Shown here: one piece after another, positions 7,148-10,062 of the stretch | Layout: the number at the start of each line of letters is the position of its first letter | Numbering within the stretch: the stretch's first letter is position 1 | NCBI GenBank assembly: GCA_902554035.1 | Contig: CACDMX010000001.1 | Span: 122,243 to 186,236, forward strand | Reading direction: 5' to 3' | From: an uncultured Pelagibacteraceae bacterium | GTDB taxonomy: Bacteria; Pseudomonadota; Alphaproteobacteria; Pelagibacterales; Pelagibacteraceae | DNA length: 63,994 nt | Notes under the pieces: generated by a model | Databases searched by the model: none | Seen by the model: only the letters and a program-made list of their open reading frames with translations | Told to the model about the DNA's origin: nothing | Program-made: the position numbers and the translations under genes

Positions 7148-7194
7148 AAATTTATATTATTTTAAATAATTTTTATTATGATACCAAAATTAGT

Positions 7195-7722
7195 ATGAGC
7201 AATAAATTAATAATTAGCTTTGAAGAGTACTTAGATACTGTTGAAAAACTTGCTGTTAAGATTCATCAAAATTACAAACCAACTGTTTTAGTAGGTATAA
7301 TGAGAGGTGCAGCACCAATAATAGATATTCTATCGAGAATATTAAAACTTCCAACAGCCTATATAGTGATTCAGAGTTACTCAGGAAAAGGAATTCAGGA
7401 CAAACAAGGAAAATTAATGTTTGCGAGAGAAATTAGTTCATTAGCAGTATCAAAAGATTTTAATAAAGTACTTTTAGCTGATGACTTGTCAGACACAGGT
7501 CTTACGCTGAATAAAAGTATTGAGTGGTTAAAGAATTACAATCCAATCAAAAATAATATTAATGAAATTAAAACAGCATGTCTTTGGAAAAAAAAGTCAT
7601 CAACTTTTACACCTGATTTTTGTTCTGTATTATTGGACTCTGATCCTTGGATTGTGCAACCAACTGAACATTATGAGGAAATAGATATTAGCAAAATAAT
7701 AACGAAGCATAAAAAAGGCTAG
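7195..7722 (+). CDS. Purine phosphoribosyltransferase (Gpt/hypoxanthine-type)
   Basis: Converts a purine base plus PRPP to the nucleotide. The PRPP-binding loop is VLLADDLSDTGLTL and the N-terminal substrate loop is VLVGIMRGAAPI. The C-terminal DSDPWIVQPTEHYE resembles xanthine/hypoxanthine-guanine enzymes. 175 residues. It converges on an NCS2 purine permease across a shared terminator, so uptake and salvage of the same base is likely. Which purine is used cannot be read from sequence. Confidence 0.82.
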   Translation: MSNKLIISFEEYLDTVEKLAVKIHQNYKPTVLVGIMRGAAPIIDILSRILKLPTAYIVIQSYSGKGIQDKQGKLMFAREISSLAVSKDFNKVLLADDLSDTGLTLNKSIEWLKNYNPIKNNINEIKTACLWKKKSSTFTPDFCSVLLDSDPWIVQPTEHYEEIDISKIITKHKKG

Positions 7723-9194: not shown

Positions 9195-9500
9195 ATGAAA
9201 AATCTATCCGTTTTTATTTTTGGAATGTTATTAATTCTTTTTATGTCAGGCTGTCAAACTATAAAAGAAAAAACAGATGAAATTGAAAAAAAAGAAAGTA
9301 AAAAGTTAAGCCAGTTTATTGGACAACCGGTTTCTGAACTAAAGATTGTAATGGGAAAACCTACAGGTATTTCTCAAAGCGATACTGGTTTAAAAGTTTT
9401 AATATATAAAACTAAGAAATATGGGATTACTTGTGAAAGGAAATTTGAAATTAATAACAACGATATGGTGATCGGGTTTCAAACAAAAGGATGTTTCTGA
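9195..9500 (+). CDS. Small lipoprotein with a BamE/SmpA-like segment
   Basis: 101 residues. A lipoprotein signal peptide ends in the lipobox LFMSGC (Cys at 20), followed by a short charged helix. The segment FIGQPVSELKIVMGKPTG has the G-x-P-x-S-x-L...G-x-P pattern of BamE/OmlA-like folds. Function unknown; it may assist outer-membrane assembly. Stands alone, followed by a strong hairpin. Confidence 0.7.
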   Translation: MKNLSVFIFGMLLILFMSGCQTIKEKTDEIEKKESKKLSQFIGQPVSELKIVMGKPTGISQSDTGLKVLIYKTKKYGITCERKFEINNNDMVIGFQTKGCF

Positions 9501-9536: not shown

Positions 9537-9977
9537 TTATTTAATTTCTATAAGTTTTTTCTTTTTGTACTCTGGTACAATTCTTTCACAAGCAATTGTC
9601 AATAGACCATCTTTTAATTCTGCTCCACCCACTTTTACATCATCTGCAATTGTGAATGATCTAGCAAATTGTCTTTGAGAAATACCTTTGTGAATTATTT
9701 CACCATCCTTATTTTCAGATTTATTAATCTGTTTAGTTCTTACAGTTAATAAATTATCTTCAAACTCTACCTCAACATCCTTTTTGTTAAAACCAGCTAG
9801 TGCAACTTCAATTGAGTATTTGTCCTTTCCAGTTTTTCTTATGTTGTAGGGCGGATAATTAGATTGCATTGTCAAACTACCATTACCTAGCATACTTTCA
9901 AATTGGTCAAACATATCATCAAAACCAATTGAAAAAGGTCTTAGAGAGTTGAATATTGATAAGTCCTTACTTGTCAT
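9537..9977 (-). CDS. Small heat-shock protein Hsp20 (IbpA-like)
   Basis: ATP-independent holdase that keeps unfolding proteins soluble. The alpha-crystallin domain spans about residues 45-135 (YNIRKTGKDKYSIEVALAGF, then GISQRQFARSFTIADDVKV, and the closing LKDGLLTIAC). A C-terminal LIEIK gives an I-x-I-type anchor. 146 residues with an RpoH-type promoter and a ROSE-like leader immediately upstream, so expression is expected to respond to heat at both transcription and translation. Confidence 0.93.
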   Translation of the reverse strand: MTSKDLSIFNSLRPFSIGFDDMFDQFESMLGNGSLTMQSNYPPYNIRKTGKDKYSIEVALAGFNKKDVEVEFEDNLLTVRTKQINKSENKDGEIIHKGISQRQFARSFTIADDVKVGGAELKDGLLTIACERIVPEYKKKKLIEIK

Positions 9978-10027
9978 TTTTCCTCCTTTGTTAGCAAGGT
10001 TGTTGTAAGCCCCATTTGGCGACTTAC
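9978..10027 (-). promoter_or_regulatory. ROSE-like RNA thermometer in the hsp20 leader (predicted)
   Basis: The roughly 50-base leader has two hairpins. The first is GTAAG/CTTAC at 10027-10023 with 10009-10005. The second sequesters the Shine-Dalgarno: TTGCT (9997-9993) faces AGGAG (9987-9983) over the loop AACAA, and C9998-G9982 extends the helix. U·G, U-A, G·G, C-G, U-A is the pairing scheme of ROSE thermometers, including their odd G·G pair. ROSE elements are known on alpha- and gammaproteobacterial small heat-shock genes. Read by eye, not folded. Confidence 0.68.
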
Positions 10028-10031
10028 ATTT

Positions 10032-10062
10032 ATTATATGGGAATAATTAATTTTTTTTCAAG
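10032..10062 (-). promoter_or_regulatory. RpoH (sigma-32)-type promoter of hsp20
   Basis: CTTG (10062-10059) followed by AAA, a 17-base spacer and CCCATATAAT (10041-10032). This fits the alphaproteobacterial RpoH pattern CTTG-N17/18-CYTATNTNNG, and equally E. coli sigma-32 CTTGAAA...CCCCATNT. Predicted start near 10027 gives the 50-base thermometer leader. Confidence 0.72.

Follow-up and report, generated by a model that had tools for sequence, protein, structure and literature searches.

The closest described relative of the element discussed here is the short ROSE leader of Pseudomonas ibpA, an experimentally proven RNA thermometer of two hairpins, of which hairpin 2 alone is sufficient (PMC3669281). 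The rhizobial ROSE elements and the ibpA ROSE elements of E. coli and Salmonella also precede heat-shock genes and sequester the Shine-Dalgarno (SD) sequence by means of a U(U/C)GCU motif, but they are built of three to four hairpins (PMC3669281). In a ROSE-like element that precedes oppF of Providencia stuartii the motif is UUGCU; the crystal structure shows its G as a bulge, with a U.G pair on one side and a C-G pair on the other, and in the NMR structure from Bradyrhizobium there is a G-G pair instead (PMC11342760).

A 2009 survey of structured RNAs in Pelagibacter mentions neither heat-shock genes nor thermometers. The main text of a 2019 survey of intergenic regions in HIMB5, a member of SAR11, lists one 'possible RNA thermometer' with gene and structure unnamed (PMC6429828); this may be the leader described below. 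A literature search for SAR11 together with RNA thermometers found nothing besides the HIMB5 survey that joins the two.

The leader of hsp20 in the window, by which we mean the whole 63,994-nucleotide stretch of DNA that was analysed, from an uncultured Pelagibacteraceae bacterium, shares with the Pseudomonas ibpA element (ROSE_3 in Rfam) its two hairpins, a sigma-32 promoter, a small heat-shock gene downstream and U(U/C)GCU placed opposite the SD with an unpaired G. In both, hairpin 1 has its G bulged out where U is followed by CC (U[G]CC...GG), and the ROSE_3 consensus reads AU[G]CC...GGGU. The SAR11 leaders differ in being A+T-rich, in the 50-nt length of the leader, in scoring 22-28 bits against a ROSE_3 gathering score of 43, and in hairpin 2, a single short stem, predicted to be less stable, in which the upper G-C pair seen in Pseudomonas is missing. 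The two-hairpin minimal thermometer of which the earlier note spoke has a precedent, a ROSE element of this kind having been published for Pseudomonas (PMC3669281). Because the SAR11 leader so closely matches that proven one, hsp20 is probably under the control of an RNA thermometer. It is very likely, in our judgment, that the leader is a short ROSE-like thermometer under RpoH control and that it is conserved across SAR11. Its features, all on the minus strand, are as follows.

9537..9977, minus strand: hsp20, a small heat-shock protein of IbpA type, 146 aa (PF00011, E 1.7e-17)
9975..9977, minus strand: hsp20 start codon ATG (from the open reading frame and the PF00011 match; invariant in the alignment)
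10056..10062, minus strand: CTTGAAA, the -35 box of a promoter of sigma-32/RpoH type (TTG(A)AA kept in about 90 of 94 leaders)
10032..10041, minus strand: -10 element CCCATATAAT, conserved, 14 nt from CTTGAAA and 17 from CTTG
10027..10028, minus strand: probable transcription start, at or adjoining the first base of hairpin 1 (from the fixed distance between promoter and hairpin)
10005..10027, minus strand: hairpin 1, GUAAGUC[G]CC-AAAU-GGGGCUUAC, with the bulged G at 10020 (covariation in 94 leaders)
9993..9998, minus strand: anti-SD strand CUUGCU with the ROSE motif U(U/C)GCU, kept in 94/94 leaders of 11 genera (UCGCU in one group)
9988..9992, minus strand: hairpin 2 loop AACAA
9982..9987, minus strand: Shine-Dalgarno AGGAGG, the strand of hairpin 2 that would be sequestered by pairing with CUUGCU (GGAG invariant)
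9963..9974, minus strand: codons 2-5, ACA AGT AAG GAC (synonymous constraint is unusually strong at codons 2-4; AGUAAGG and CCUUGCU could pair)

The element stands directly before the start codon of a heat-shock gene, in its 5' UTR, and covariance-model matches likewise lie directly before hsp20. The best NCBIfam match of the product is IbpA, at 101.6 bits, which is below the equivalog cut-off of 212. Convergent to hsp20, and ending just past it, is a small open reading frame of 101 aa (9195-9500, plus strand) with a lipoprotein-like start (LFMSGC), for which Pfam gave no match. Everything that the earlier note had read from the letters, including the promoter boxes, the spacing of 17 from CTTG, the hairpins and the SD, was found as described on the minus strand. 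A single sequence is no proof, since TTGCT followed after 2-8 nucleotides by AGGAG would be expected 0.77 times by chance in the window, and it is the comparison of 94 leaders across SAR11 that is decisive for the reality of the element. Leader and coding start together fold more stably than shuffled sequences (z -3.3).

For this comparison hsp20 leaders were read from SAR11 genomes of 11 genera. A text pattern covering both hairpins matched 154 loci, four further loci with the UCGCU form were read directly, and two were left out (L036, and L091 at a contig end); the alignment, A5, has 94 rows. Between 97.8 and 98.4% of pair cells are formed (97.8% standard pairs in A5), and hairpin 1 shows compensatory changes at seven of its nine pairs, counts that lean upward because the rows were aligned so as to fit the structure, a good many of them being related. 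The covariation score of 0.32 compares with 0.16 in shuffled alignments, none of 500 reaching it, and with at most 0.10 in slid controls. The variants can be followed by eye from genus to genus, as GTAAG/CTTAC, CAAG/CTTG, GTTAG/CTAAC and TTGAT/ATCAA. The bulged G is unchanged in 94/94 leaders and stands in a core, UYGCC-loop-GGG, that is common to Pseudomonas; hairpin 1 is therefore more than the short substitute for the upstream stems of rhizobial ROSE for which it had been taken.

In hairpin 2, CU(U/C)GCU and GGAG are retained, and the linker and the loop vary in length and sequence. The G of the anti-SD strand is present in 93 of the 94 leaders, the exception (L164, CTCGCT) being a shifted row. 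With the SD fixed, this hairpin is not provable by covariation. The earlier note had named a loss of TTGCT in relatives as fatal to its reading; CU(U/C)GCU proved to be present in SAR11 leaders throughout, and the reading stood. A diverged second hsp20 in one genome (L170 in G210) also has a two-hairpin leader. In another, G098, contig 13 carries hsp20 matches of identical score at 1764-2207 and 7158-7601, 5.4 kb apart, reflecting a duplication or an assembly artefact. A search for further copies of the leader in the genome gave 17.3 bits (E 0.24) as its best other match, which was taken as chance.

Hairpin 1 is an inverted repeat that closely follows a sigma-32 promoter, and it lies 43 bases past the stop codon of the upstream peptidase gene, a position that would suit a DNA operator or a terminator of that gene, with hairpin 2 then being fortuitous. 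The stems nevertheless differ among lineages by changes that are compensatory or involve G.U (UG/UA, CG/UG), a pattern of RNA rather than of a DNA operator, and a T-run follows hairpin 1 in no leader. Both the operator and the terminator were rejected on these grounds, the G.U covariation and the missing T-run, and we regard them as very improbable indeed.

A pair of promoter boxes resembling CTTGAAA/CCCATATAA is present in 94/94 leaders, with 14 nt between them in 83, and the end of the -10 box is separated from hairpin 1 by 5 nt in 66/94 leaders and by 3-6 nt in 88/94. The mean match to the promoter is 13.9 of 16 in the leaders and 9.6 in shuffled upstream sequence; the search template was taken from the window, and the constancy of the spacing is independent of that template. 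The genome also has a gene for RpoH itself (356 bits, above cut-off), so that both boxes, their conserved spacing and the cognate sigma factor are all found. Since the distance from promoter to hairpin is fixed, the mRNA should start at hairpin 1. A strict RpoH pattern occurs at only one further site in the genome, which lies inside a coding region but on the opposite strand to it and was dismissed as chance. Upstream of a SAR11 rpoH gene (L191, locus 2400-2355, minus strand) there is ATTGAAA...TTATTAAATAA, perhaps a weak sigma-32-like promoter.

The relation to the curated ROSE families was examined with Rfam covariance models, a check that the earlier note had proposed. On the window no model reached its gathering score, and the ROSE models were absent even at E = 10, the classical ones included; weak matches to the PutA thermometer, preQ1-II and isrF at a permissive threshold were judged to be chance. 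ROSE_3 (RF02523) was nevertheless found below threshold, in the right register, on hsp20 leaders of four SAR11 loci, L018 (24.5 bits), L193 (28.3), L151 (23.0) and L046 (22.4), and on that of L214 in another alphaproteobacterial family (28.6), a range of 22.4-28.6 bits. As the gathering score is 43 bits and the best SAR11 leader has 28.3, the element is not to be filed in RF02523. The SAR11 hsp20 leader is, as judged from its letters and pairing, a ROSE-like thermometer by structure, and not a member of the curated family by score.

Recognition also ran in the opposite direction, and here the evidence is stronger. Among 397 Pseudomonadota genomes a covariance model for which SAR11 leaders were the sole training set (R2) gave four matches with E ≤ 0.05 that lay outside SAR11; the best two of the four lie directly before hsp20 homologues, and one of these two is an ibpA-type ROSE_3 element of Rfam (63.8 bits). 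Thus the SAR11 model finds a ROSE_3 element, and ROSE_3 finds five SAR11 and other alphaproteobacterial hsp20 leaders. With model R1 on 289 alphaproteobacteria, six of the 16 sub-threshold places outside SAR11 that were fetched (L208-L223) are directly before hsp20 (L211, L213, L214, L217, L218 and L219). The leader at L213 (1501-1585) has the bulged-G core of hairpin 1 and a longer final ROSE stem, and is possibly of an intermediate type. At L208 (1501-1567), away from hsp20, the exact hairpin-1 core occurs in a terminator-like hairpin, GGCGGTCGCCTAATGGGGCCGCC, with a T-run. A different hsp20 leader is found in f2 (L121-L149), another family within the order; it has two upstream hairpins and UCGCUUAAGGAGGA, and its final stem is longer and fully paired, like that of classical ROSE; Rfam flagged neither of the two f2 leaders that were scanned. 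Taken together, the conservation, the covariation and the recognition in both directions support the earlier note's reading of an RpoH promoter followed by a ROSE-like thermometer.

The pairing within hairpin 2 can be drawn in two registers. The earlier note had set UUGCU against AGGAG with a G.G pair (U-G, U-A, G.G, C-G, U-A), and these pairs are there as described. The alternative leaves the G bulged (C-G, U-A, U.G, [G], C-G, U-A) and fits the conserved letters slightly better, with 98.7% of hairpin-2 cells paired against 97.1% for the G.G-opposed form; the base 3' of GGAG, which is G in 73, A in 12 and T in 9 of the 94 leaders, is variable, and this favours the bulged G. The G.G pair is accordingly one of two possible registers. 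The bulged form is that of the P. stuartii oppF element, which belongs to another gene class and another bacterial class. In either register the leaders combine U(U/C)GCU-SD pairing (97-99% of cells), a bulged or mispaired G and a stable 5' hairpin, which are the structural marks of a ROSE-like element.

Hairpin 1 is predicted at -12.8 kcal/mol at 20°C. For hairpin 2 of the window in the G.G register the predicted values are -4.0 kcal/mol at 10°C, -2.9 at 20°C and -1.0 at 37°C, energies that are not calibrated for the ROSE motif. This is weaker than the -5 to -6 kcal/mol cited as needed for an effect on initiation, and weaker than the Pseudomonas values, which run from -4.1 to -7.6 kcal/mol (PMC3669281). 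In the bulged-G register at 37°C the ROSE_3 element L307 is at -2.8 and the window at +2.0, with the same reservation as to calibration. A weak hairpin 2, as modelled, would fit a lower set point. Nearest-neighbour folding between 4 and 42°C gave little change in the opening of the SD and no sharp melting. The folding program also prefers, in this genome, to pair the anti-SD strand as CCUU/AAGG or as CCUUGCU/AGUAAGG (codons 3-5) over the ROSE register. The latter is the predicted fold in most relatives and is favoured by conservation as well, and the CCUU/AAGG option is missing from many lineages, which read ACUUGCUU.

These predictions bear on a second explanation, in which the conserved leader acts, through hairpin 1, to stabilise the mRNA or to bind a protein, and pairing of the SD only sets a low, temperature-independent rate of translation. 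Hairpin 1 is the best supported part of the leader and its bulged G is invariant, and a weak hairpin 2 without sharp melting would suit such a role. Against it, the U(U/C)GCU motif is retained with the U/C exchange that it permits, and the leader matches in architecture and sequence a proven thermometer that needs no more than hairpin 2 (PMC3669281). We consider a stabiliser of this kind quite improbable.

A further feature of the locus lies within the coding sequence. In 139 hsp20 genes that start with MT, codon 2 is ACA in 138, the serine at codon 3 is AGT in 137/137 and the lysine at codon 4 is AAG in 132/135; in the rest of hsp20 AAG makes up 19% of lysine and AGT 14% of serine codons. Across the Pelagibacteraceae, codons 2-4 (window 9966-9974, minus strand) hardly vary at synonymous sites, and among 122 positions synonymous constraint is strongest at these three. 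This constraint would suit a bistable variant in which the coding start took part in the switch, the anti-SD strand CCUUGCU alternating between the SD in the off state and AGUAAGG of codons 3-5. The two strands can form seven consecutive pairs, which are the minimum free energy fold of one stretch; gene starts in the window show no general excess of AAG (9/77), and in four of four UCGCU leaders the lysine codon is AAA, not AAG. Yet the codon 3-5 pairing is absent in distant genera with the N-termini MSNALS and MKELS, though the ROSE motif is retained there; the real sequence does not stand out consistently from 96 synonymous recodings, whether in stability or in SD opening; and AGC, which would pair better than AGT, is unused. 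Such a bistable leader seems unlikely to us. A fuller form would add two things to the swap between SD and codons 3-5: a bulged-G hairpin 1 that is a functional module of its own, common to SAR11 and Pseudomonas, and a set point lowered to suit the sea. We hold it to be distinctly unlikely.

The simple ROSE-like thermometer under RpoH control, which we prefer, would work in the following manner. RpoH would transcribe hsp20 from a promoter so placed that the mRNA begins with hairpin 1. This stable bulged-G hairpin probably shields the 5' end and insulates the fold. In hairpin 2, U(U/C)GCU would pair with the SD, weakened by an unpaired or mispaired G, and would exclude the ribosome at low temperature; on warming, hairpin 2 would open and translation would begin.

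SAR11, with their streamlined cells, are the most abundant bacteria of the ocean, form a large share of its plankton and have few transcription regulators. If the hsp20 leader is indeed a conserved thermometer, temperature would be sensed in these organisms at the level of translation itself, and a 50-nt element would make it possible to test the heat set point of an organism relevant to ocean warming. The short ROSE would then reach beyond Pseudomonas into an entire order of the Alphaproteobacteria, and the comparison has brought to light a conserved bulged-G core in hairpin 1.
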